DNA of 33,985 nt from a virus. The stretch spans positions 1-33,985 of the IMG/VR virus record IMGVR_UViG_3300048586_000894; one strand, 5' to 3'. The notes beneath the pieces were generated by a model that saw nothing but the letters and a program-made list of their open reading frames with translations, did not search any database and was not told where the DNA came from. The position numbers and the translations under genes are program-made. Each line of letters starts with the position of its first letter. The first letter of the stretch is position 1. Shown piece by piece: positions 1 to 33,713 of the stretch.

Positions 1-1164
1 GTGGCGAGCATCCAGGAGCGCCGAACGACCTCGAACGAGGTCTCGTGGCGCGTGCAGTACCGCGTCGATGGGCGCGCGCGCAGCGACACCGTCGCCACCC
101 TCACCGAGGCGATCCGCCATAAGGCAGCCGTCGAACGGCTCGGCGGCGAAGCAGCTCGCGCGATCCTCTACGCCCGCGAGGGAGTCAGCACCGCCGACCA
201 GGTCGTCACGGTCGCCAGCTACACCACGACCTACGTCGCGGGCATCCGCGGCATCACCGAGGGCACCCGACGCGACTACGCCTCCATGGTGCGCCGGCGC
301 ATCGACGGCACACCCCTGGGCGAGACACCTGTCGAGGTCGTCACCCGCGACGCGGTCGTCGCCTGGCTCGACGCGCTGCCCGGGTCCGCGAAGACCAAGC
401 GCAACCACCACGCCCTGCTCTCCGCCGCGCTCGACCACGCCGCCACAGCCGGCCTGCGCGCCGGCAACCCCGCCAAGGGCATCGAGATCGCCCGCGAGGT
501 CACCCGCACCGGTGAGTTCCTCACCCCCGGCGAGGTCGCGATCATCGCGTCAGCGATCGACGCGCACTACCTGCCGCTGTTCGCGTTCCTCGTCGGCACC
601 GGCGCACGTTGGGGCGAGGCGACCGCGCTCCTGGTCTCCGACGTCGACCTCGAGGCCCGCGTGCCCGTCGCCCGAGTCACCAAGGCGTGGAAGCGCACCG
701 GCACCCGGGCCTGGTCGCTCGGGCCCCCGAAGTCCGCGGCCGGCCAGCGCACCATCGCCCTGCCACCCGAGGTCGCCGAGCAGCTGCGCCCACTCGTCGA
801 CGGGCAACCCTCCTCCGCGCTGCTGTTCCGCGCGCCGCGAGGTGGGCAGATCCGCCACGACCGGTTCTTCTCCCGAGTCTGGAAGCCGACCCTCGATCGG
901 CTCAACGCCACCGAGGACGACAACGGCAACCCGATCACCCCGGCCCTGACGAAGCGCCCGCGCATCCACGACCTGCGCCACACCCACGCGTCGCAGCTGA
1001 TGGCCGCCGGCGTGCCGCTCAACGTCGTCCAGAAGCGCCTCGGCCACGAGAAGATCACCACCACCGCGGACACCTACGGCCACCTCGCACCCGACTACCT
1101 CGAGGTCGCCGCGGCCGCCGCGTCCCTCGGTCTCACCCAGGCGTTCCCCGCGATTGAGGCCTAG
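1..1164 (+). CDS. int: Tyrosine site-specific integrase (phage integrase)
   Basis: This 387-residue tyrosine recombinase would integrate and excise the prophage by recombining attP with attB. Residues 1-60 look like an arm-binding AP2-like domain, 70-165 a SAM-like core-binding domain, and 175-375 the catalytic domain. The catalytic set is visible: R203 in GARWGE, H323 and R326 in HDLRH, H349 in LGHE, and the nucleophile Y359 in DTYGHL. Length and order are normal for actinophage integrases. The GTG start is the first base of the window, so an upstream start, the promoter and any att site cannot be judged. Its TAG stop shares the palindrome CCTAGG with the stop of the convergent metallopeptidase gene. 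A second, unrelated integrase lies at the right end of the window. Confidence 0.95.
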   Translation: MASIQERRTTSNEVSWRVQYRVDGRARSDTVATLTEAIRHKAAVERLGGEAARAILYAREGVSTADQVVTVASYTTTYVAGIRGITEGTRRDYASMVRRRIDGTPLGETPVEVVTRDAVVAWLDALPGSAKTKRNHHALLSAALDHAATAGLRAGNPAKGIEIAREVTRTGEFLTPGEVAIIASAIDAHYLPLFAFLVGTGARWGEATALLVSDVDLEARVPVARVTKAWKRTGTRAWSLGPPKSAAGQRTIALPPEVAEQLRPLVDGQPSSALLFRAPRGGQIRHDRFFSRVWKPTLDRLNATEDDNGNPITPALTKRPRIHDLRHTHASQLMAAGVPLNVVQKRLGHEKITTTADTYGHLAPDYLEVAAAAASLGLTQAFPAIEA

Positions 1165-5084: not shown

Positions 5085-5422
5085 CCGGGCAGCAGCTCAC
5101 CATCGAAGAGGCGATCGCGAACCGCGACGGCATCCTGCACCTCATCGCCGGCGACCCCATGAAGTCCGCCTCGGTCCGCGCGGTCGCCGAGACCATCGCC
5201 CGCGTCGCTACCGCCGGGGACCGGGTCTCCGCGAACAGCATCCGCCCGCACCTGCCGACGTGGGTGAACACCGCCGCCATCGGCCCCGCGTTCGGGCACC
5301 TGCAGCGCGCCGGCGCCCTGCACCGCCTCGGCGAGGTCATCTCCACCGACGAGGGCACCCACGGCAAGCGCGTCGCCCTGTACCTCGTCACCGACGACGC
5401 GCTTGAGGCGATCGCGTCATGA
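5081..5422 (+). CDS. Hypothetical protein, probable winged-helix fold
   Basis: A 113-residue protein of unrecognised family. The middle (SVRAVAETIARVA, then NSIRPHLPTWVNTAAIGPAF, then LQRAGALHRLGEVISTDE) reads like helix-helix-helix-wing, suggesting a winged helix that binds DNA or another protein. The GTG start is fixed by the GTGA overlap with the RusA gene. A replication or regulatory accessory role is plausible but unproven. Confidence 0.6.
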   Translation: MTGQQLTIEEAIANRDGILHLIAGDPMKSASVRAVAETIARVATAGDRVSANSIRPHLPTWVNTAAIGPAFGHLQRAGALHRLGEVISTDEGTHGKRVALYLVTDDALEAIAS

Positions 5423-5571
5423 GCAGCACCGCGTCGTTCCAGGACCGCGCCCTGGCCCGCGTGCATCGCGGGCCCTGCGGTGGCTGGCACTACGACGACT
5501 CCCGCGACCGGCGCCGCTTCTGCTCCGCGTGCGTAGCCCTCGGCGTGCCCCGCGAGGTGGGGCCGTCATGA
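5419..5571 (+). CDS. 50-residue candidate zinc-binding protein
   Basis: This short frame fits exactly between two ATGA overlaps. The product has C20 and H24 (GPCGGWHYD) and then C35 and C38 (RFCSAC), a C-x3-H / C-x2-C layout that could bind one zinc. It is basic in the centre. Function unknown, but it is one of several small Cys/His-rich proteins in this operon. Confidence 0.55.
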   Translation: MSSTASFQDRALARVHRGPCGGWHYDDSRDRRRFCSACVALGVPREVGPS

Positions 5572-5765
5572 GCCCGCCGCTGGGCGCCGCCGAGCGCAAC
5601 CTCTCACCGGCCCCGCCCGCGAAGCGGAACGCCTGGTACTGCCCGCACGGCTGCAAGCCCCGCAACAGCCCCATGGGGCACGGCCAGAACGCCGACGCGG
5701 CCCGCGCCGCCGGCATCCGCCACTTCCTCGACGTCCACGACCAGCCCGCACCGGAGACGACATGA
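5568..5765 (+). CDS. 65-residue candidate zinc-finger protein
   Basis: The product has C25 and C29 (WYCPHGCK) followed by H38, H52 and H57, a spacing compatible with a CCHH-type site, and a Pro-rich N-terminus. The start is set by ATGA overlap with the preceding gene, and the stop overlaps the next ATG. No family recognised. Small phage zinc-finger proteins often bind nucleic acids or host proteins; that remains inference here. Confidence 0.55.
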   Translation: MSPPLGAAERNLSPAPPAKRNAWYCPHGCKPRNSPMGHGQNADAARAAGIRHFLDVHDQPAPETT

Positions 5766-6139
5766 CCACCGACCTCGACGACGCCCTGTTCTACGACCTG
5801 CTCGCCTCCATCGCCCACGCGGGCGACAAGTTCGGGCCGCAATACGAGATCCCCGACGTCGACCAGGTCCTCATGACCAGGCCCGGCGGCTGCACGGCGC
5901 AGCGGATGGCGGAGGAGTACGGGATCCCCACCGCCGGGCGGGCCCGCTCGAGCACCGAACTCATGGCCCGCCGTGGTGGGCTCACATGGGGGCACATCCT
6001 CATCGAGGAGGTCGCCGAAGCGATCGAGGCCGCCACCGTGGAACCGCCGAACCGGCTGCGCGCCGAGCTGCTCCAGGTCGCCGCGGTCGCGCTGCGCTGG
6101 GCCGACGCGATCGACCACCGCCCGGCGGTGACGGCATGA
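5762..6139 (+). CDS. MazG-like nucleotide pyrophosphohydrolase family protein
   Basis: This 125-residue all-helical protein has the MazG-like acidic pattern: HILIEEVAEAIEAAT (E82, E83, E86) followed by RAELLQVAAVALRWADAI (E102, D115), the usual magnesium-binding helices. MazG-type enzymes hydrolyse NTPs or dNTPs to monophosphates and pyrophosphate. In phages they may clean nucleotide pools or lower host alarmone levels. The N-terminal 60 residues are less typical. ATGA overlaps couple it on both sides, directly before the ParB-like gene. Family assignment is fair; substrate unknown. Confidence 0.7.
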   Translation: MTTDLDDALFYDLLASIAHAGDKFGPQYEIPDVDQVLMTRPGGCTAQRMAEEYGIPTAGRARSSTELMARRGGLTWGHILIEEVAEAIEAATVEPPNRLRAELLQVAAVALRWADAIDHRPAVTA

Positions 6140-7422
6140 CGACCACCTACCTGCCCGAGGTCCCGCTGACCCGGCTCGTCCCCCACGGTGCGAACCCGCG
6201 CCACCAGCTGCGCGACCTCGACGACCTCACGGCCAGCATCAAGGCCAAGGGAGTACTCGAGCCCCTGGTCGTCGCGCCGCTGAACGGCACGCAGTACCGC
6301 ATCATCGCCGGGCACCGCCGCCACGCCGCCGCCAAGGCAGCCGGCCTCACCACCGTCGCCGCAGTACTGCGCGAGGACCTCGACACCCCCGCGAAGCAGC
6401 TCGAGGCGATGGTCATCGAGAACGGGCAGCGCGTCGACCTGACCCCGATCGAGGAGGCCGAGGCCTACCAGGCGCTCCTCGACTTCCCCGCCTACACGGT
6501 CGCGAAGGTCGCCAAGGCCACCGGGAAGTCGCCGAAGACCATCAAGGGCCGCCTCGCGCTCGCGAAGCTGCCCGACGGCACCCGCGACCGGATCCACGAC
6601 GGCCAGATCACCCTGGCCGAGGCGAACACCCTCACCGAGTTCGTCGGCACCAAGGAGTACTCCGGCCTCGTCAAGGCCGTCGGCACCTCCCAGTTCGCCT
6701 ACGCCGTCCAGCATGCGCGGAACGCCGCGAAGACCCGCGAGCAGCGCGCCGTCGTCGTCGCGTTCGCCGACGCCACTGACGACTGGACCATCACCGACGA
6801 CTACCAGGCCTGCGGCCGCACGGTCCTGCAGAGCTGGAACGCCCCGAAGTCGATCGCCCTGCTCGAGAAGGCCCTTAAGGCGCTCACCGGGCCGCACGTC
6901 GTGCGCCGCGACTACGGCGACGGCTGGTCCGTCTGCGAGCCGCCCGCCCCGGAGGACCAGGCCCACCGGCAGCCTGACTCGCCGGAGGCGATCGCCGCAC
7001 GCGCCGCACGCGAGGCCAAGGACGCCGACCTCGAGACCGCTCGCCAGGTCCGCGCCGACTGGCTCCGCGGCCGCCTCGGCACGCTGATCGTCTCGGACAG
7101 CACACGCCTCGAGCTGCTCCATCTCCTCGTCGCCGACCGCATCACCGGCGCGGACGACGAGGACTTCGAGCTCATCGGGGCGCCGGCCACGCCGGAGGGC
7201 AAGCGCGCGTGGGACAGCGACGTCGTCGCCGCGCGCAAGGCCTGGGTCCTGACCCTCAACGAGTACCAGGCATGGAAGGCCCTCCTCGTCCTCACGTTCA
7301 ACCTCACCCTCGACGGTGCACGCACCTGGGAGGGCGCGCATCGCGAGTCCATCACCGTCGCCCAGGCCCTCGGCTACACGCCTAGCGACGTCGAGCTCGA
7401 GCTCCTGGCCGGCACCGAGTGA
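6136..7422 (+). CDS. ParB/Spo0J-like DNA-binding protein
   Basis: A 428-residue protein with a clear ParB N-terminal domain: GANPR at 18-22, the nucleotide-pocket motif GHRRHAA at 59-65, and VIENGQRVDLTPIEEAEAY at 93-111. A helix-turn-helix follows at about 119-146 (YTVAKVAKATGKSPKTIKGR). The remaining 280 residues are not a typical short ParB dimerisation tail. No ParA lies nearby, so plasmid-style partitioning is unlikely. Phage ParB-like proteins may act in replication, regulation or as nucleases. The start is set by the ATGA overlap with the MazG-like gene. Confidence 0.85.
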   Translation: MTTTYLPEVPLTRLVPHGANPRHQLRDLDDLTASIKAKGVLEPLVVAPLNGTQYRIIAGHRRHAAAKAAGLTTVAAVLREDLDTPAKQLEAMVIENGQRVDLTPIEEAEAYQALLDFPAYTVAKVAKATGKSPKTIKGRLALAKLPDGTRDRIHDGQITLAEANTLTEFVGTKEYSGLVKAVGTSQFAYAVQHARNAAKTREQRAVVVAFADATDDWTITDDYQACGRTVLQSWNAPKSIALLEKALKALTGPHVVRRDYGDGWSVCEPPAPEDQAHRQPDSPEAIAARAAREAKDADLETARQVRADWLRGRLGTLIVSDSTRLELLHLLVADRITGADDEDFELIGAPATPEGKRAWDSDVVAARKAWVLTLNEYQAWKALLVLTFNLTLDGARTWEGAHRESITVAQALGYTPSDVELELLAGTE

Positions 7423-16825: not shown

Positions 16826-17932
16826 ATGGCCGACGCGCTCGCCAACTTCGCTGTCTCCACGGTTGCGACCGCGCCGTCCCCGGCGACGTCCGGGACCAGC
16901 CTCGTCGTCGCCGCGGGCGAAGGAGCACGCTTCCCCGACCCGGCAACCGTCGGGCCGTACAACGTCACCCTCGTGCCCGTCTCGACCGCGCCGGAGCTCT
17001 ACTACACGACCGCTGAGATCGTCCGCGTCACGGCGAAGTCGACGGACACGCTGACGATCACCCGCGCGCAGGAGTCGACCACGGCCCGCAGCGTGGCAAC
17101 CGGCTGGCTGGTGGCGCTCGTCCTCACCACGGCGAGCGTCACATCGCGATCGCCCAAGGTCGAGGCGTTCACGTCGAACGGCACCTGGACCAAGGAGCCG
17201 GGAGCCGATGCCGTCGAGGTGACCTGCATCGGTCCTGGCGGCCCCGGCGGTGGTGGTCGGTGCGGGGTGACGTCCACGGCGCGCGGCGGTGGCGGTGGCG
17301 GAGCGGGCGGCGGCTGGTCGCGGGCGGTGTTCGCGGCTGCGTCTCTCGGCGCCACCGAGACCGTCACCGTCAACGGCACGGTCACCGGTGGCGTGGGCGC
17401 GTCAGCCACCGCCGACGGCACCACTGCCTCGGCCGGTGTCGCCACGACGTTCGGCTCGAAGCTGCGAGCCGGACCGGGCGGCGCCGGCGGTGGTGGAACG
17501 TCCGGTGCCGGTGCGGCCGGGTCCGCGTCCGGGGGGCTGATCTTCGGTGTCGCCGGCGCAGCTGGCTCGAGCGGTGCCGCAGCGGCCGGTAACGCAGGCA
17601 ACGGTGGCGGGCCGACGGGCGGCGGTGGCGGCGGTGGCCTGTCGACTGCGAACGCGCTGCTCGCTGCGGGCACGGGCGGCATCTCGAACATGATCTCCGG
17701 GTCGGCCACAGCCGTGAACACCGCCGGAGCGAGCGGCGCAGCGAACAGCGCCGTTTGTGGCCAGGGCGGCGGCGGTGGTTCGGCATCTGTCGCTGGGGCA
17801 GCCAACGACGGCGGTGCCGGCGGCACCTACGGCGGCGGCGGGGGCGGCGGTGGCGCATCCGTCAACGGTCAGAAGGCCGGCAACGGCGGCACCGGCGCCG
17901 GCGGCATCTGCCTGGTCATCACGTTCTTCTAG
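16826..17932 (+). CDS. Glycine-rich adhesin-like fibre protein
   Basis: A 368-residue protein. Residues 1-105 form a domain found at the start of actinophage fibre proteins (EIVRVTAKSTDTLTITRAQE, then TTARSVATGW). Residues 115-368 are extremely glycine-rich, with runs of six to eight Gly (for example near 148 and 260) separated by Ala/Ser/Thr segments, and end in GGICLVITFF. This resembles the polyglycine sandwich of receptor-binding adhesins such as T-even gp38, though homology cannot be claimed by eye. Two cysteines lie at the domain edges. Likely surface-exposed and variable. Confidence 0.7.
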   Translation: MADALANFAVSTVATAPSPATSGTSLVVAAGEGARFPDPATVGPYNVTLVPVSTAPELYYTTAEIVRVTAKSTDTLTITRAQESTTARSVATGWLVALVLTTASVTSRSPKVEAFTSNGTWTKEPGADAVEVTCIGPGGPGGGGRCGVTSTARGGGGGGAGGGWSRAVFAAASLGATETVTVNGTVTGGVGASATADGTTASAGVATTFGSKLRAGPGGAGGGGTSGAGAAGSASGGLIFGVAGAAGSSGAAAAGNAGNGGGPTGGGGGGGLSTANALLAAGTGGISNMISGSATAVNTAGASGAANSAVCGQGGGGGSASVAGAANDGGAGGTYGGGGGGGGASVNGQKAGNGGTGAGGICLVITFF

Positions 17933-17941
17933 GGAGGCAGC

Positions 17942-18904
17942 ATGCTCGGCGCCTCCCCCCTCGGCATCACGCCCCTCGGAGAAGTCCCCTACGTCGCCGC
18001 GTCCGGCGGAGCCGCTGCCGGAACCGGCTCGCTGGCCCTGTCTGGGTCAGGCACCGCTACCGCAAGCGCGTGGGCATCCGGCTCGCTGTCCATCTCCGCC
18101 GCGGCGACTGCGCGCGCCGCAGCCACCGCTTCGGGGTCGCTGTCGCTCTCGGGTTCCGGGACGGCTCAGGCCCCGGTCACCGCCAGCGGCTCCCTGACGA
18201 TCTCGGCCTCCGGCACGGCATCGGCGTCGCCGGCGGCGACGGCCGCGATCGCGATCTCCGCGACGGGCACGGCGCGGGGCGCCGCGACCGCGACCGGCTC
18301 GGTCACCCTGTCCGGGACGGCCGCGGCTCAGGCTCCCGTCACCGCGTCCGGGTTCATCGACCTGTCCGGGACCGCCACGGCGGGCGTAGGCGGCGGACTG
18401 TCCGCGTCGGCCTCCCTGGACCTCAGCGGGGCCGGGACGGCGCGAGCGGCCGCCACAGCGTCGGGCAGCGTCACGCTGACGGGCAGTGCGACCGCAGCAG
18501 CCTCCGCCACCGCTGCAGCGACGCTCTCGATCTCCGGCGTCGCGACCGCGCGAGCAGCTGCCACCAGCACCGCGACGCTCACCATCTCGGCCGCCGCCAC
18601 CGCGGCCGCCAGGGCCACCGCGACCGCCACGGTCACCCTCTCCGCGGGCGCCACCGCCCGGGCGCTCGTCACCGCCGGCACCGCGACGGTCACCCTCAGC
18701 GCCACGGGCACCGCCACGGGGACGGCGTCTGGTGCGCCACCGACGGGTCGCGCCAGGGGTGGCGGGGCCGTCTCTCGCCCCACGAGCGGGGTCCTCGGGC
18801 GCCGCACCGGTGGCGGTCCCGTTCCTGCCCGCCCGACCTCGGGCTCTGCCGCCGTCCCGCGCGTCCGCTCGGGCGCTGCCCGCACCCCGATCACAGGAGG
18901 CTGA
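17942..18904 (+). CDS. Tandem-repeat surface protein (13 copies of an 18-residue unit)
   Basis: A 320-residue protein made of an N-terminal 28-residue lead (MLGASPLGITPLGEVPYVAA), thirteen degenerate repeats and a Pro/Arg/Gly-rich basic tail. The unit is about GSLTLSGSGTARAAATAS: a beta strand of alternating hydrophobics, a small-residue turn and an Ala/Thr segment. Eleven or so units keep exactly 18 residues. The pattern suggests a beta-solenoid or extended fibre. GGGAGG lies just before the ATG, and the glycine-rich gene is nine bases upstream. Function unknown; a fibre or head-surface protein is the best guess. Confidence 0.7.
   Translation: MLGASPLGITPLGEVPYVAASGGAAAGTGSLALSGSGTATASAWASGSLSISAAATARAAATASGSLSLSGSGTAQAPVTASGSLTISASGTASASPAATAAIAISATGTARGAATATGSVTLSGTAAAQAPVTASGFIDLSGTATAGVGGGLSASASLDLSGAGTARAAATASGSVTLTGSATAAASATAAATLSISGVATARAAATSTATLTISAAATAAARATATATVTLSAGATARALVTAGTATVTLSATGTATGTASGAPPTGRARGGGAVSRPTSGVLGRRTGGGPVPARPTSGSAAVPRVRSGAARTPITGG
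18026..18733 (+). repeat. 54-base degenerate tandem repeats, 13 units
   Basis: The DNA encodes units of 18 residues except one of 20 (seventh), one of 19 and a last one of 17. Conservation is higher at protein level (xSLxLSGxGTAxAxxxAS) than at base level, so the array is old or under coding selection rather than freshly duplicated. It is not CRISPR: there are no conserved palindromic repeats and the frame stays open. Confidence 0.8.
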
Positions 18905-26782: not shown

Positions 26783-27328
26783 GTGATCGTGCCCTCGGAA
26801 GACACCCTCGTCGTCGCTGGCAAGATCACCGCCGCTTGGGCGAACGCTGACGTCCGGGACGCGATCAACTTCCTGCTCGACCCTCCGGGTGCGTTCCCCT
26901 ACCAGTCGACGGGTGTCGTGATCCCGACCGGGACCGCGACCGAGACGCTGATGACGTTCGACACGGAGTCGTGGGACAACGACGCCATGCACGACAACGC
27001 CACCAACCCGTCGAGGGTGATCGCGAAGACCGCGGGCAAGTTCGCGGTCAACTTCCAGGTCGCGTTCCCCGCCAACGCGACGGGCGTGCGCTACGCGATC
27101 CTGCGGAAGAACGCTGCCGGCGTTTCTGGTGGCGGCACCGCGATCGCGTTCGCCCGTGACCAGTCCGCGTCGGCGACCGGCGCGTCCTACGTGTCGAAGT
27201 CCCTCGACGTGCAGATGGCGCTCAACGACTACCTCGAGCTCTTCGCCATCCAGACCTCCGGCGGCAACCTGACCTCGGTCACCGGCATATCCGGCACCTA
27301 CCTGCAGATGCGGAGGGTCGGCGCGTGA
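26783..27328 (+). CDS. C1q/TNF-like tail fibre protein
   Basis: A 181-residue protein. Residues 1-55 (LVVAGKITAAWANADVRDAI, NFLLDPPGAF) are a common phage-fibre attachment segment. From about 60 to the end the beta pattern (FDTESWDNDAMHDNATNPSR, AGKFAVNFQVAFPAN, NDYLELFAIQTSGGNLTSV, YLQMRRVGA) matches the trimeric C1q-like jelly-roll head used for receptor binding. The GTG has AGGAGGAG upstream. It follows the tail-tip gene and is the best receptor-binding candidate on the tail. Confidence 0.75.
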   Translation: MIVPSEDTLVVAGKITAAWANADVRDAINFLLDPPGAFPYQSTGVVIPTGTATETLMTFDTESWDNDAMHDNATNPSRVIAKTAGKFAVNFQVAFPANATGVRYAILRKNAAGVSGGGTAIAFARDQSASATGASYVSKSLDVQMALNDYLELFAIQTSGGNLTSVTGISGTYLQMRRVGA

Positions 27329-27621
27329 GCGAGACCGAAGTCGTGGCTCTCATGGCCCTGGTGGGCACCCTGTTCGCTGCGGTCGTGGTCGTCATCGCCG
27401 CCGTGTTGTCCTCGCGGCAGAAGGCCACCGAGCTCATCATCGCCGACCTGCGCGGCGAGCTCGCCGACACCCGCGCCGAGGTCCTCGCCAACGACCGCCG
27501 CATCCAGGCACTCGAGCGCCGCGACCGCGCGTGGGCGAACTACGTGCACCGCCTCCGCGCGCACATCGTGAACGAACAGCCCCCGCCGCCCCCCGAGTGG
27601 CCGGCCGAGCTCGACCGCTGA
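27325..27621 (+). CDS. Membrane plus coiled-coil protein, lysis region
   Basis: A 98-residue protein with one N-terminal membrane helix (residues 6-29, VVALMALVGTLFAAVVVVIA), then a charged coiled coil (ELIIADLRGELADTRAEVLA, NDRRIQALERRDRAW) and a Pro-rich tail. GTGA overlap couples it to the fibre gene. The layout (single helix, periplasm- or wall-facing coil) could suit a lysis accessory protein or a second holin-like protein, but no family is certain. Confidence 0.65.
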   Translation: MSETEVVALMALVGTLFAAVVVVIAAVLSSRQKATELIIADLRGELADTRAEVLANDRRIQALERRDRAWANYVHRLRAHIVNEQPPPPPEWPAELDR

Positions 27622-27663: not shown

Positions 27664-27684
27664 TTCGCCATGAGGAGTCCACCC

Positions 27685-28044
27685 ATGCTCATCCCCCTGC
27701 TGCTCGCCGCGCTGATCCTGCTCATCGCAGCGATCGCCTACGCCGTGCTCGGCCGCGACCGCCTCGCCGCCGCGTGGGACACCGTCCCCGGCCCGGTGCG
27801 CACCGTGGTGAACGTCTTCGTCGCCGGCGCCGTCCTCGTCGTCTGCGCCGCGGTCGCCCGCGCCCAGGGCGTCACCGGCGTCGACTGGTCCGCCACCGGT
27901 GAGGCCGCTCTGAACGCCGGCGCCCTCGGCGTCGCGACGGCGATCTTCCGCGCGGTGAACCCCCTCGACGACGCCTACGGCCTCGGCAAGGGCCGGGTCG
28001 TCGAGGGCGTCGACGCCGACACCGTCCCGCCCGTGGTCGACTGA
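27685..28044 (+). CDS. Holin candidate
   Basis: A 119-residue protein with two hydrophobic segments: residues 2-24 (LIPLLLAALILLIAAIAYAV) and about 42-61 (VVNVFVAGAVLVVCAAVARA), and a third weaker one near 80-93, then a charged tail. Size, membrane pattern and position directly before the endolysin (TGATG overlap) support a holin, which would permeabilise the membrane at lysis time. AGGAG precedes the ATG at 27685; an upstream start at 27670 overlaps that site. Confidence 0.7.
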   Translation: MLIPLLLAALILLIAAIAYAVLGRDRLAAAWDTVPGPVRTVVNVFVAGAVLVVCAAVARAQGVTGVDWSATGEAALNAGALGVATAIFRAVNPLDDAYGLGKGRVVEGVDADTVPPVVD

Positions 28045-28760
28045 TGCCCCGCTCGATCAACCGGTGGCCCGTCCTCGGGGAGCGCTCGAGCGACCTGGCT
28101 ATCGGCACCGTGCCCGGCACCACCATCCGCCTGCGCATGCGCGCCGACGTCCTCCCGTTGTTCCTCGCCCTGGCCGCGGAGTACCACCGCACGGTCGCGC
28201 CGCTGCGCAAGGGTGAGTGCGGGGCGTACAGCCACCGTGAGGCCCGCGCGGCGGCCGCCTGGTCCGACCACGCCTCTGGCACCGCCATGGACCTCAACTG
28301 GCGGCACGAGGGCGCCCAGGGCCCCCGTGGTGGCATGGCCACCATGAGCAAGGCGCAGATCAAGGCGTGCGCCGCGCTGAAGAAGCGGTTCAAGGTCGTC
28401 ATCTGGGGCGGCGACAAGGCCCGCGGCGGCGACTACTCCCAGCCGCGCTACTGGGACCCGATGCACTACGCGCTCAAGCCGGGCACCTCTGTCGCGGAGG
28501 TCCGCGCGGTGATCAAGGCGCTGCGCATCCGCCCCGACGGGACCATCGCCCCACCCCCGAAGCCCACCCGGGGACGCGCCAAGGTCACCGACCCGGACGG
28601 CGCCTGGTCCCGCCGCGAGCCCGCCGGCCGCAAGGTCCGCCTGCGCAAGCGCGGCGAGACCGTCACCTACGTCGGCGTGCGCCGCGTCGACGACGTCGAC
28701 TGGCTGCACCTGGTCTCCGGCAACTGGCTGCGCAGCTCGCTCACCTCGAGGGGGGCCTGA
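28044..28760 (+). CDS. Endolysin, M15-type peptidase with C-terminal SH3-like domain
   Basis: A 238-residue peptidoglycan hydrolase. The catalytic domain is an M15 (VanY/D-Ala carboxypeptidase or L-Ala-D-Glu endopeptidase-like) fold: SDHASGTAMDLNW gives metal ligands H76 and D83 (SxHxxGxAxD), and YWDPMHYAL gives H141. A Pro/Lys linker at about 170-180 leads to a C-terminal beta domain (PAGRKVRLRKRGETVTYVGV, WLHLVSGNWLRSS) resembling a bacterial SH3 wall-binding module. No signal peptide, so release depends on the holin. The GH16 gene overlaps its stop. Confidence 0.88.
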   Translation: MPRSINRWPVLGERSSDLAIGTVPGTTIRLRMRADVLPLFLALAAEYHRTVAPLRKGECGAYSHREARAAAAWSDHASGTAMDLNWRHEGAQGPRGGMATMSKAQIKACAALKKRFKVVIWGGDKARGGDYSQPRYWDPMHYALKPGTSVAEVRAVIKALRIRPDGTIAPPPKPTRGRAKVTDPDGAWSRREPAGRKVRLRKRGETVTYVGVRRVDDVDWLHLVSGNWLRSSLTSRGA

Positions 28761-29752
28761 TGACCTACGAGACCGCGCTGGCCGCAGCCGGCCGCGAAGC
28801 CGACGAGCGGATCGCCGCCCTCGACCTCGAGCTGCACAACGCGCAGACCGAGCGGGACATCGCCCAGCGGGAGGCCGCCGACGCCTCGGCCGAGGTCACC
28901 CGCCTCGAGTCCGCGCTCGGCGCCGAGCAGGTCGCACGCCGCGCTGCGGACGCCCGGGTCGCCCTGCTCGAGCAGCAGCTGCGGAACCTGCTCAGCCAGC
29001 AGGAGGCGGCGCTGTCCGTCGCCCCGGCCGGGTCGCGGGTCGCGTTCCTGGACACGTTCTCCGGCGCCTCGGTCGACCAGGCGAAGTGGACCATCCGCAA
29101 CGACTCAGGCCAGAGCAACAATTACGGCGCCAACCGTCCGGCCAACGCCGTCGTCGACGCCGGGCTCCTGTCGCTGTGGATGCGCCGCGAGGCCGCCGGC
29201 ACCGACCCCTACACGGTCGCGTACCTCGACACCAACGTGAAGCCCGGGAACGTCGCTGTGGGGCTCTGGGAGTTCCGCATGGCGATGTCGCGGGCGCGCG
29301 GCTCGTGGCCGGCCGGGTGGCTCCGCCCCGTCGGCGCCCCGGGCGAGATCGACGCCGTCGAGTGGGTCGGCGACGGGAAGGGCGGCGGCCGGTTCGTGTT
29401 CACGGTGCACGAGAACACCAACGGCGTCGACGCCGCCGGCAACAAGACCCGCAAGCGCGGCTTCGAGTGGACCCCGCCCGTCGGGTTCGACCCCTTCGTG
29501 CAGCACACCTACGCCGTGCGCTGGGACGGCACGACCCTCGCGTGGCTCGTCGACGGCACGGTCATGACGAAGGTGACGACCGCCGAGCTGTCGTGGCTCG
29601 CCGGGTGCCTGGCCGGGAAGCCCCTCGCGCTCCGGCTCTGCATGCAGGCCGGCGGTTCGATGCCGAAGTACTACGGCCTCGACGCCGACGCCACCACGGT
29701 CCTGCCCGACCGCGCGTTCGTCGACTACGTGCGCGTGCTCACACCTGCCTGA
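28760..29752 (+). CDS. Coiled-coil plus glycoside hydrolase family 16 protein
   Basis: A 330-residue two-part protein. Residues 1-85 are an alpha-helical coiled coil (LDLELHNAQTERDIAQREAA, ALLEQQLRNLLSQQEAAL). Residues 93-330 are a GH16 domain: WTIRNDSGQSNNYGANRP, GSWPAGWLRPVGAPGEIDAV continuing EW, which holds the catalytic motif ExDxxE (E196 nucleophile, D198, E201 acid/base), and HTYAVRWDGTTLAWLVDGTV. GH16 enzymes cut beta-1,3/1,4-glucans, agar, carrageenan or related galactans. No signal peptide is present. TGATG overlap ties it to the endolysin gene. It may be a virion depolymerase or be released at lysis; the substrate is unknown. Confidence 0.88.
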   Translation: MTYETALAAAGREADERIAALDLELHNAQTERDIAQREAADASAEVTRLESALGAEQVARRAADARVALLEQQLRNLLSQQEAALSVAPAGSRVAFLDTFSGASVDQAKWTIRNDSGQSNNYGANRPANAVVDAGLLSLWMRREAAGTDPYTVAYLDTNVKPGNVAVGLWEFRMAMSRARGSWPAGWLRPVGAPGEIDAVEWVGDGKGGGRFVFTVHENTNGVDAAGNKTRKRGFEWTPPVGFDPFVQHTYAVRWDGTTLAWLVDGTVMTKVTTAELSWLAGCLAGKPLALRLCMQAGGSMPKYYGLDADATTVLPDRAFVDYVRVLTPA

Positions 29753-31214: not shown

Positions 31215-31343
31215 TCCGAGTCCATCGAGCCGCGCAGGCGCGCGCGGGTGCTCGGCTGCGTGGCAGCCGGCGCGCTGTATCTGGTGGTCATGCTGGCCGC
31301 GCTGGTCGGGCTCTTCGTGTGGCTGCTCTCCCGATTCAACTAG
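31212..31343 (+). CDS. 43-residue single-pass membrane microprotein
   Basis: A short frame: an N-terminal charged stretch (SESIEPRRRARV) followed by one long hydrophobic helix (residues 13-40, VAAGALYLVVMLAALVGLF continuing VWLL) and SRFN at the end. Positive charges before the helix predict an inside N-terminus. The leaderless-type promoter supports it as a real gene. Its last eight bases overlap the end of the convergent csrA gene. Function unknown. Confidence 0.55.
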   Translation: MSESIEPRRRARVLGCVAAGALYLVVMLAALVGLFVWLLSRFN

Positions 31344-31530
31344 GCGAGGGCCGCACCGGCCCCGCCGCCGCCGCGTCGAGATCCGCGAGGAGCTCAGCTC
31401 GGTTCACGGCAACCTCACGAGGCGCCTGTATGCCCAGACGGATGTTGTCGCCTCGGACCTCGAGCACGGTCACCGTGATGTTGTCGCCGATGACGATGCT
31501 CTCTCCGACGTGGCGACTGAGCACAAGCAT
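31336..31530 (-). CDS. csrA: Carbon storage regulator CsrA
   Basis: A 64-residue CsrA, the dimeric RNA-binding protein that blocks translation or alters stability of mRNAs with GGA motifs. The match is near full length: MLVLSRHVGESIVIGDNITV, then TVLEVRGDNIRLGIQAPREV and AVNRAELL. The key RNA-contact residues L4 and R44 are present; residue 43 is Asn where many have His. The tail is Ala/Pro-rich. The start has AGGGAG six bases upstream. It lies without flagellar neighbours in the accessory segment right of the prophage, and overlaps the end of a convergent microprotein gene. Confidence 0.92.
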   Translation of the reverse strand: MLVLSRHVGESIVIGDNITVTVLEVRGDNIRLGIQAPREVAVNRAELLADLDAAAAGPVRPSPS

Positions 31531-31572
31531 CCGTCTGCTCCCTGGCGCTAGGTGGCGGTGGGGGCCGCGTAA

Positions 31573-31598
31573 CGGTCCACGGAAGGGTCCGTGGACCG
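31573..31598. terminator. 11-bp perfect hairpin upstream of csrA
   Basis: CGGTCCACGGA (31573-31583) pairs perfectly with TCCGTGGACCG (31588-31598) around AGGG (CCCT on the minus strand). It lies after the zinc-ribbon gene and 43 bases before the csrA start on that strand. It may end the recombinase/zinc-ribbon transcript or sit in the csrA leader. Confidence 0.6.
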
Positions 31599-31658
31599 CC
31601 GGGCGCCCGCCCGCCGACCCCCACCAGCTGTGAGCCTGGCAGAGCCGAAGGGCGGTTG

Positions 31659-31970
31659 CTACCCGAGCGCGTCGATCGTGACGGTGCTCCAGCTGGCGCA
31701 GTGCTGGCACTGCAGGATGAGCATCGCGTCGTCGATCTCCACCACGCTCCACACGTGGCCGTCGCAGTCGACAGAGTCCGTGGGGTGCAAGAACTCCTCG
31801 AGCTCGTCGATGTAGCCCTGGAGACGAGCCGCTTCCCACTCGTGCGCCGGCGTTGTGCGAGCGTGACCGCGCGGGCAATCGCAACCGCGGCTATGCGGAA
31901 CCTCGCGCGCCAGCCCAGGCTGTCGATGCAGCGGAAGCCCGCAGATAGGGCAGCGCAGGTACCCAGTCAC
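31659..31970 (-). CDS. Zinc-ribbon protein coupled to the serine recombinase
   Basis: A 103-residue protein with two knuckles, YLRCPICGLPLH at the start and LILQCQHCASWSTV near the end, plus C30/C32 and several His residues between and a helical middle (EAARLQGYIDELEEFLH). The GTG start shares GTGA with the recombinase stop, so the two are translationally coupled. It resembles the 67-residue zinc-ribbon protein at 30908-31111. A directionality factor for the recombinase is possible by position, but accessory factors of serine integrases vary too widely to recognise by sequence. Confidence 0.65.
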   Translation of the reverse strand: MTGYLRCPICGLPLHRQPGLAREVPHSRGCDCPRGHARTTPAHEWEAARLQGYIDELEEFLHPTDSVDCDGHVWSVVEIDDAMLILQCQHCASWSTVTIDALG

Positions 31971-33400
31971 GGCCTCACGCTAGCCACGGCCCGCGGCGGT
32001 GTCCCACCCAGCGGTTGCCCCACCCGCCAAGCAAGGTCCAGCTGCTCCGGAGTGAAACGGCGCCCGGGACCCACCCGTGACACAGAGACCACGACGAGGG
32101 TGTCAATGACCAAGCGCTGCTCGTCGAGGGATAGACGCTCCCATCCGGCTCGCAGGTGCCGGCGGGGCCTCGCGTGCGCAGTGGTAAGCAGCAGCTTGGC
32201 CAGCGCCGCCGGCCGCGCCTGCCCCGCCCAGGTGCGTTCGAGGTCGCGCTCTCGTGCGCGCAGCCGAGTGGACATCGAAGCGAGCTGCGCACGCGTGATC
32301 ACCCCATCGGTGAACAGCACCGCCGCCTGCGCCAGGTCCGCGCGACATCTCAGCAATGCACGGCGGGCCGCGCGAGAGTCAGATCCCGCGGTGCCGACCA
32401 GCAGATCGAGAGCATCGGGCTCGGCCAGACGCGCGAGCACCGCGCGAACGACGGCGACGTCGACCTGGTCGACGGCGCGGTAGACATGGAACCGCGGACA
32501 CCGGTAGGAGGGACCGCCACCGGCGCGCGTCGGCATCCCCGAGCTCCCGACCCGCTCACCGCACACGCCGCAGCGGGCGAGCCCGGACAGGAGGTGCTTG
32601 CGGCCAGGGACAGCGAATCGAGCCAGGCGGACAGGGTCGTTCAACCTCTCCTGCAGCGCTTCATGCGTGGCTGGGCTCAGCAGCGGCGTCCACCGCCCGA
32701 CACCCACGGGTTCGCCGTGGTAGGTCGCGATGCCGGCGTAGCGGGGATTGCGCAGCACCCGGATCAAGCTCGTCGGCGTCCACCGCGCACCCGTCGACGT
32801 TGCCACGCCGCGGTCGTTGAGCCGGCGCACGGCCTGGGTGACGCTGAGGTCCTCGTCGAGGAACTCCCCCACGATGCGACGCAACGCCGCCGCCTCCGAC
32901 CTGTTCACCCGTCCATCGAGGTCGTACCCGAACGGGCGACGCAGCAACTTCACCTGCCCGGCCTGCGCGCGCTGCCGGTGGGCGCGGCGTTGCCGCACGC
33001 TCTTCCGCTCGATCTCTGCTTGCGCCACCGACCCCAAGATCCGCGCCACCAACCTGCCCGAGTCCGTGCCCAGATCGAGATCACCCGTCACCGTCGCGAT
33101 ACGCACCCCAGCCGCCTCGCAGCGGGTCAGGAGCGGCTCGAGGTCCGCCAGACGCCGAACCAGCCGATCGACATGCCACGCGACCACGACGTCGACCGCG
33201 CCCCGGTCCACCAGTCCCACCAGCGCGTCGAACCCTGGGCGGTGACGAGCCAACGCCGACGTGTCGTTGTCGACGAGCTCCGCGACGACGTCCCATCCCC
33301 GCGCGGCCGCCAACGCCACACAATCCTCACGCTGGCGCCCAACAGCTGCGGCCAACCCGGTCCGATCCTGCGACTGCCGCAGGTACAGCACAGCCCGCAC
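31967..33400 (-). CDS. Large serine recombinase (integrase)
   Basis: A 477-residue serine integrase. The resolvase domain opens VRAVLYLRQSQDRTG with the nucleophile S10, followed by RQREDCVALAAARGW, HVDRLVRRLADLEPLL (active-site Arg region) and GSVAQAEIERKSVRQ. Then come the recombinase domain (RRIVGEFLDEDLSVTQAVRR, RVLRNPRYAGIATYHGEP), a zinc ribbon (LARCGVCGERVG, YRCPRFHV) and a coiled-coil end. GTG at 33400 is preferred: GGGAGG lies six bases upstream; starts at 33403 and 33427 are alternatives. Such enzymes integrate phages and mobile elements unidirectionally. It is a second integrase in the same window. Confidence 0.93.
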   Translation of the reverse strand: MRAVLYLRQSQDRTGLAAAVGRQREDCVALAAARGWDVVAELVDNDTSALARHRPGFDALVGLVDRGAVDVVVAWHVDRLVRRLADLEPLLTRCEAAGVRIATVTGDLDLGTDSGRLVARILGSVAQAEIERKSVRQRRAHRQRAQAGQVKLLRRPFGYDLDGRVNRSEAAALRRIVGEFLDEDLSVTQAVRRLNDRGVATSTGARWTPTSLIRVLRNPRYAGIATYHGEPVGVGRWTPLLSPATHEALQERLNDPVRLARFAVPGRKHLLSGLARCGVCGERVGSSGMPTRAGGGPSYRCPRFHVYRAVDQVDVAVVRAVLARLAEPDALDLLVGTAGSDSRAARRALLRCRADLAQAAVLFTDGVITRAQLASMSTRLRARERDLERTWAGQARPAALAKLLLTTAHARPRRHLRAGWERLSLDEQRLVIDTLVVVSVSRVGPGRRFTPEQLDLAWRVGQPLGGTPPRAVASVRP

Positions 33401-33445
33401 CACACACCTCCCGGATTCACCGCGCATCCCCCGACAGGATCGTCC

Positions 33446-33461
33446 TACCGTGTGCGCCGTG
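33446..33461 (+). promoter_or_regulatory. Candidate leaderless promoter (TACCGT-N7-GTG)
   Basis: TACCGT at 33446-33451 is followed by seven bases and the GTG at 33459. It lies in the short divergent space beside the serine recombinase start. No ribosome site is visible for that GTG. Confidence 0.4.
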
Positions 33462-33713
33462 AGCCTCGAGTTGTGGGACTGGTGGGAGAACCGCCTCACC
33501 GACGCCCAACGCAGCGAACTCCTCGTCGAAGCCGACGTCGTCCTACCACCCGACCTCGCACTCGAGCTGTGGCGCAGCTCCGGACGCCTGCGCATCGTCG
33601 AGCCCGAGACCTGGAGCGTCGATGCAGACCCCCTTCGATGGCGCCTCAGCGCGGACGCGGCGGACTTCGTCCACCAGCGGCGCTACGAGCAGACACACCC
33701 AGACGAGGACTGA
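33459..33713 (+). CDS. Hypothetical protein divergent from the serine recombinase
   Basis: An 84-residue acidic protein rich in Trp and Leu: LELWDWWENRLTDAQRSELL, then VLPPDLALELWRSSGRLRIV. No family recognised. The GTG at 33459 was chosen because conserved-looking sequence starts there and a TAnnnT box lies at leaderless spacing; an upstream in-frame start would run antisense through the recombinase gene. It could belong to the recombinase-bearing element or to the host. It ends just before the convergent DUF3263 gene. Confidence 0.55.
   Translation: MSLELWDWWENRLTDAQRSELLVEADVVLPPDLALELWRSSGRLRIVEPETWSVDADPLRWRLSADAADFVHQRRYEQTHPDED

Follow-up and report, generated by a model that had tools for sequence, protein, structure and literature searches.

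What does a glycoside hydrolase do at the end of a phage lysis cassette? The question is raised by the window, that is, the whole stretch of 33,985 bases analysed here (IMG/VR record IMGVR_UViG_3300048586_000894; G+C 71%). The nearest annotated relatives of its terminase belong to phages of actinobacteria (Mycobacterium, Gordonia, Propionibacterium/Cutibacterium, Arthrobacter, Microbacterium). An actinobacterial host is therefore assumed. From 22.9 kb, the plus strand encodes in order a tape measure protein, a tail protein, a structural protein, a membrane-anchored coiled-coil protein of 98 residues that is weakly spanin-like (27325–27621), a small hydrophobic holin-like protein (27670–28044), an M15-like endolysin with an SH3-like C-terminal part (28044–28760) and a 330-residue protein in which a GH16 domain follows a helical stalk (28760–29752). 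The holin-like protein, named from its position and hydrophobicity, had no family match in Pfam or PHROGs profile searches. The endolysin matches phrog_1512 (endolysin, 4e-13), and its match to Peptidase_M15_4 (2.8e-4) lies under the family cut-off. Its stop codon (28758–28760) shares one base with the start codon of the GH16 gene in a TGATG overlap, in agreement with the coupling to the endolysin proposed in the first-pass annotation. This start codon is backed by a conserved N-terminus, M-(T)-Y...L...G...D, in three relatives. The stalked GH16 gene is the final plus-strand gene of the series and is followed by minus-strand genes; a consensus scan of the plus strand found no terminator 3' of it.

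Elsewhere, the record encodes two integrases: a tyrosine integrase at the left end (1–1164, plus strand; PF00589, 2e-19) and, close to the right end, a large serine recombinase (31967–33595, minus strand; phrog_95, 1e-91). Perhaps two elements lie side by side, or one integrase is replacing another. A CsrA-like global regulator (PF02599, 1.1e-22; 31339–31530, minus strand, within ORF 31336–31884) adjoins the serine recombinase and is, to our knowledge, unusual in an actinophage.

The first-pass annotation had described the product of ORF 28760–29752 as a GH16 glycosidase with E196, D198 and E201 intact, and this description stood. The protein matches PF00722 with E = 1.3e-11 and 44.7 bits, for a curated cut-off of 22, and two homologues reach 47.7 and 58.2 bits. 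GH16 alone passed the Pfam cut-off, and no peptidoglycan-active domain was matched in the window protein. With phmmer, the best PDB match is 3atg (2.6e-13), and a profile of three homologues reaches 2.9e-26; the matches are solved laminarinases. AlphaFold2 (mean pLDDT 84) predicts a helix at residues 3–86, then a jelly roll; Pfam, PDB matches, AlphaFold2 and Foldseek together place the domain at residues 92–329 (29033–29746, plus strand). The best PDB folds found by Foldseek with the predicted model are GH16 laminarinases (ZgLamC, TM 0.82). In the alignment with laminarinases, the catalytic motif E196-I-D198-A-V-E201 (E-x-D-x-x-E; 29345–29362, plus strand) is complete and accompanied by H217; neither motif nor histidine has been lost in any of the three diverged homologues. 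By its family profile, catalytic motif and predicted beta-sandwich jelly roll, the window protein belongs to GH16. GH16 enzymes are retaining endo-glycanases; with all motif residues in place, the protein likely cleaves a beta-linked polysaccharide. As previously noted for this gene, a signal peptide is lacking, and so is a membrane segment (maximum 19-residue hydropathy of 0.23 in the N-terminal part). The enzyme would therefore meet its polysaccharide substrate on the virion or once the cell has lysed.

The same two-part gene was found in two other virus contigs, G001/L031 (IMGVR 3300048586_000440; gene at 17440–18420; terminase 86% identical to that of the window) and L043 (IMGVR 3300048586_000124; gene at 6004–6957). 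In G001, it comes immediately after the endolysin, as in the window. In L043, it also follows the endolysin, with an HNH-endonuclease-like ORF (5489–6004) inserted between them. This recurrence of architecture and position argues that the association of stalk and GH16 domain is not due to chance. Both contigs come from one metagenome, and the whole-gene comparison covers three sequences, the two relatives being 38–57% identical to the window protein (41% and 57% in the heads). Relatives were reached through searches with the terminase, the 98-residue membrane protein and the tail protein. With the window protein as query, no match was found in 50,697 phage records, nor in IMG/VR as a single query. 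A scan of GTDB genomes with the alignment of full-length proteins as query revealed no prophage copy, and a pattern scan of IMG/VR for the stalk peptide returned the same two contigs and no further ones. No GH16 match was present in 13 other, more distant terminase relatives, several of which are fragments, and inspection of L033–L035 revealed no stalked GH16 gene. Two further observations concern the neighboring genes. The 98-residue protein shows about 90% conservation in the two closest relatives, in which the identity of the tail proteins is only about 40%. Modularity extends to the endolysin: its catalytic halves are unlike between the window, L031 (16784–17440) and L043 (4833–5489), and its C-terminal part is 54–59% identical among the three.

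The coiled-coil stalk, already proposed in the first pass, corresponds to residues 3–86 (28766–29017, plus strand). A single heptad register runs along its whole length, with ILVMFA residues filling 76% of the a/d positions versus 37% elsewhere, and its best 28-residue segment beats shuffled sequences (p = 0.012). Between two conserved anchors, the stalk counts 29 residues in the window, 15 in L043 and 36 in G001, so that the lengths differ by 14, 7 and 21 residues, whole heptads in every case. Heptads are thus preserved, as a continuous coiled coil requires; were lengths free, two independent differences of this kind would have a chance of about 1 in 49. The stalk is most likely oligomeric, probably a trimer. 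Within it, residues 27–40 (NAQTERDIAQREAA; 28838–28879, plus strand; consensus NAxTERDIAQREAA) are 93–100% identical in the three homologues, for 28–77% in the flanks and 41–57% in the head. An ordinary coiled coil would not call for this degree of conservation, and this segment therefore likely binds a partner, possibly as a docking site.

Among known enzymes, the GH16_3 laminarinases (ZgLamC 4crq, Thermotoga maritima 3azx, Cellulosimicrobium 3atg and Nocardiopsis 2hyk) give the best matches in sequence and in fold. The window protein shares with them the jelly roll, the E-x-D-x-x-E motif, WPA-x-W and the conserved histidine. It differs in that it is only 22–29% identical, has a loop without WPX, lacks a signal peptide and carries a coiled-coil stalk. 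GH16_3 is defined by the E-x-D-x-x-E beta-bulge motif, a nearby conserved histidine and a largely conserved WPA...WXX...WPX pattern (PMC6827312). The three phage heads have the beta-bulge motif, the nearby histidine, WPA and W-L, and WPX is absent from them. Their loop between WPA-x-W and GEID (7–8 residues) is the shortest of 84 aligned sequences, 69 of which contain WP. Since they depart from the published pattern, the heads are not assigned to GH16_3, although they resemble it most. In a tree of 97 GH16 domains, in which long branches are present, they group together (SH-aLRT 96) at the end of a long branch, with no near cellular neighbors in a cellular sample restricted by the search patterns. 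Recent acquisition from a host, which the first-pass annotation had considered, is not supported by this tree. The loop without WPX and the distance from sampled cellular sequences also mean that laminarin is not to be assumed as substrate, and that the beta-glucan or galactan specificity initially put forward cannot be deduced. Another candidate phage GH16, in L040 (MT838766.1, 'Bacteriophage sp.' in GenBank), was set aside: the record reads as a Bacteroides polysaccharide-utilisation fragment with GH16 and GH3-like genes, and is probably misassigned as bacteriophage.

Further relatives suggest that the head can be exchanged. In L150 (IMGVR 3300017766_001184), found via the 98-residue protein, an ATGA overlap joins the endolysin to the next protein (MTYTESLSAIGAAADAEV...), in which a short helix is followed by a proline linker. 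When 15,931 ORFs were searched with the stalk profile, this ORF ranked first outside the trio (E = 0.045). The N-terminal match is short and modest (p 0.0005–0.006 against shuffles), occurs at the syntenic place and does not include the 27–40 peptide. The L150 head falls outside GH16: its alignments are with extracellular-type Skermanella proteins, by weak homology (E 1e-4 at best), and it matched no named family in any profile library searched. Its repeats, read by eye, together with this weak homology tentatively point to a right-handed beta-helix; the single-sequence AlphaFold2 model of the protein has a pLDDT of 37. In L164 (IMGVR 3300033180_000003), found via the tail protein, an amidase endolysin precedes a protein made of helix and head, itself followed by a Gp80-family fibre protein (PF23140, 2e-16). 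The helix is alanine-rich and unrelated to the window stalk; after a linker comes a head containing WPALW...ELDVIE, which can tentatively be called GH16-like (hhalign E 1e-3, probability 21%; no PF00722 match). L047 encodes a tail-fibre-like protein (phrog_523, phrog_2282) that terminates in a GH16 domain; one of its neighbors has a tail-fibre-assembly match (phrog_863) and another is GH26-like. It is possible, though we hold it with some doubt, that a group of actinobacterial siphoviruses reserves a slot adjoining the endolysin, or in translational overlap with it, where a helical stalk carries interchangeable glycan-active heads (GH16, divergent GH16, beta-helix).

Other large proteins were seen at comparable places. 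L149 encodes inside its lysis cassette a 640-residue protein (5361–7283) with no family match, which was read as a beta-helical tailspike, and a large protein without family match lies in or near the lysis cassette of a related phage (L158, 9664–10944). In L047 (48–7304), the GH16-bearing tail-fibre-like protein, a protein reading as a tailspike and the GH26-like protein stand in a row.

Taken together, these comparisons tip the balance slightly towards a virion-attached polysaccharide depolymerase borne on a coiled-coil stalk. The protein would be made late, together with the endolysin. Its oligomeric N-terminal stalk, most likely a trimer, would carry retaining GH16 endo-glycanase heads, and residues 27–40 would most likely anchor this stalk to the tail or to a further fibre; each virion would then carry the enzyme. 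During adsorption, it would clear the capsule, exopolysaccharide or biofilm matrix of the actinobacterial host. This reading is favoured because the combination of a conserved N-terminal peptide with an exchangeable head is what characterises branched receptor-binding depolymerases, in which a conserved N-terminal peptide and an exchanged enzyme domain have been described (PMC6872550). Branched Klebsiella phage depolymerases have a short conserved N-terminal peptide and exchange the head between relatives (PMC6872550), as the window group may also do. However, most of them are trimers of the beta-helix type that attach to T4gp10-like domains, whereas in the window protein GH16 is borne by a helical stalk, for which no T4gp10-like partner was found. 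Attachment to the virion is also supported by the GH16 domain on the tail-fibre-like protein of L047, by the fibre gene adjoining the L164 protein and by the jelly-roll minor tail proteins of actinophages. Minor tail proteins from phages of Arthrobacter, Gordonia and Rhodococcus are among its fold-level neighbors in BFVD. Several points count against it: no particle-binding or adaptor domain was recognised in the window protein; the gene lies within the lysis cassette, translationally overlapping the endolysin, and not in the tail module; the N-terminal resemblance behind the head exchange in L150 is short and weak and leaves out the 27–40 peptide; the GH16 call in L164 is weak; and G001 and L043 share a metagenome.

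The main alternative is a depolymerase released at lysis. The oligomer would remain cytoplasmic, escape through the action of the endolysin and dissolve the matrix or capsule around neighboring cells, so that progeny spread. The place of the gene after those of the holin-like protein and the endolysin, the TGATG overlap and the lack of a signal peptide all fit such a release. The depolymerase of Bacillus phage phiNIT1 is a gamma-PGA hydrolase, and differs from the window protein in being another enzyme and having no stalk. It exemplifies the soluble phage depolymerases described as freed at lysis (PMC9863714; PMC11058221), and degrades the host coat without needing a tail (PMC9863714). A free enzyme, however, would have no use for a stalk of 85 residues bearing a near-invariant peptide, and fibre- or tailspike-like genes lie in or beside the same cassette in L164 and, by reading, in L149. 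The first-pass annotation had left attachment and release side by side. The comparative evidence favours the virion-attached depolymerase, to which we give a little more than even weight, over release, which is less probable; no sequence test separates the two.

Less probable still is a catalytically weak or dead GH16-like lectin head, in which case the protein would be a receptor-binding fibre that merely binds glucan or another glycan. The loop between WPA-x-W and GEID, devoid of the Trp-Pro element of the negative subsites, and the frequency of jelly-roll domains of the same fold in actinophage minor tail proteins are compatible with mere binding. Yet E-x-D-x-x-E and H217 are retained despite the divergence of the three homologues, and catalytic residues are lost in only about 1% of GH16 outside GH16_4 (PMC6827312). 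The first pass had said that its reading would fall if only lectin-like relatives were found; on the contrary, the best ones are active laminarinases. Finally, a glucanase helping the infected host to use environmental beta-glucans, in line with the auxiliary metabolic label given to viral GH16 in marine and rumen viromes (PMC11019789, PMC10465536), is very improbable for a protein with no secretion signal, a late position by the endolysin, a fused stalk and no metabolic neighbors.

GH16 is already known in phages, both from viromes, where it was called metabolic (PMC11019789, PMC10465536), and from tailed phages, namely Sinorhizobium phages phiM12, phiM7, phiM9 and phiN3, Rhizobium phage RHph_X2_24 and Siphoviridae sp. 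ctLfk13. The phiM12 and RHph_X2_24 domains differ from those described here: they branch in another clade of the tree, have no endolysin as neighbor and follow another type of N-terminal part. The open-licence literature yielded no account of a GH16 protein that is both stalked and coupled to an endolysin.

That relatives keep the position of the stalk and change the cutting end suggests a tool, probably carried on the virus particle, that opens the host coat. Depolymerases have been characterised mainly in phages of Gram-negative bacteria (PMC9863714), and reports on halo-forming actinophages identify no depolymerase gene in them (PMC10927635, PMC12723522). If our proposal is true, the stalk slot would represent an unrecognised depolymerase class, which might explain actinophage halos lacking such a gene, for instance those of Garey24 and Byron23. 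A stalked GH16 gene beside the endolysin gives a concrete place to seek actinophage depolymerases, and the default 'metabolic' label for viral GH16 may mislead when the domain is stalked and encoded in a late operon. In addition, because heads are exchanged, one can test whether the chemistry of the host coat drives their exchange.
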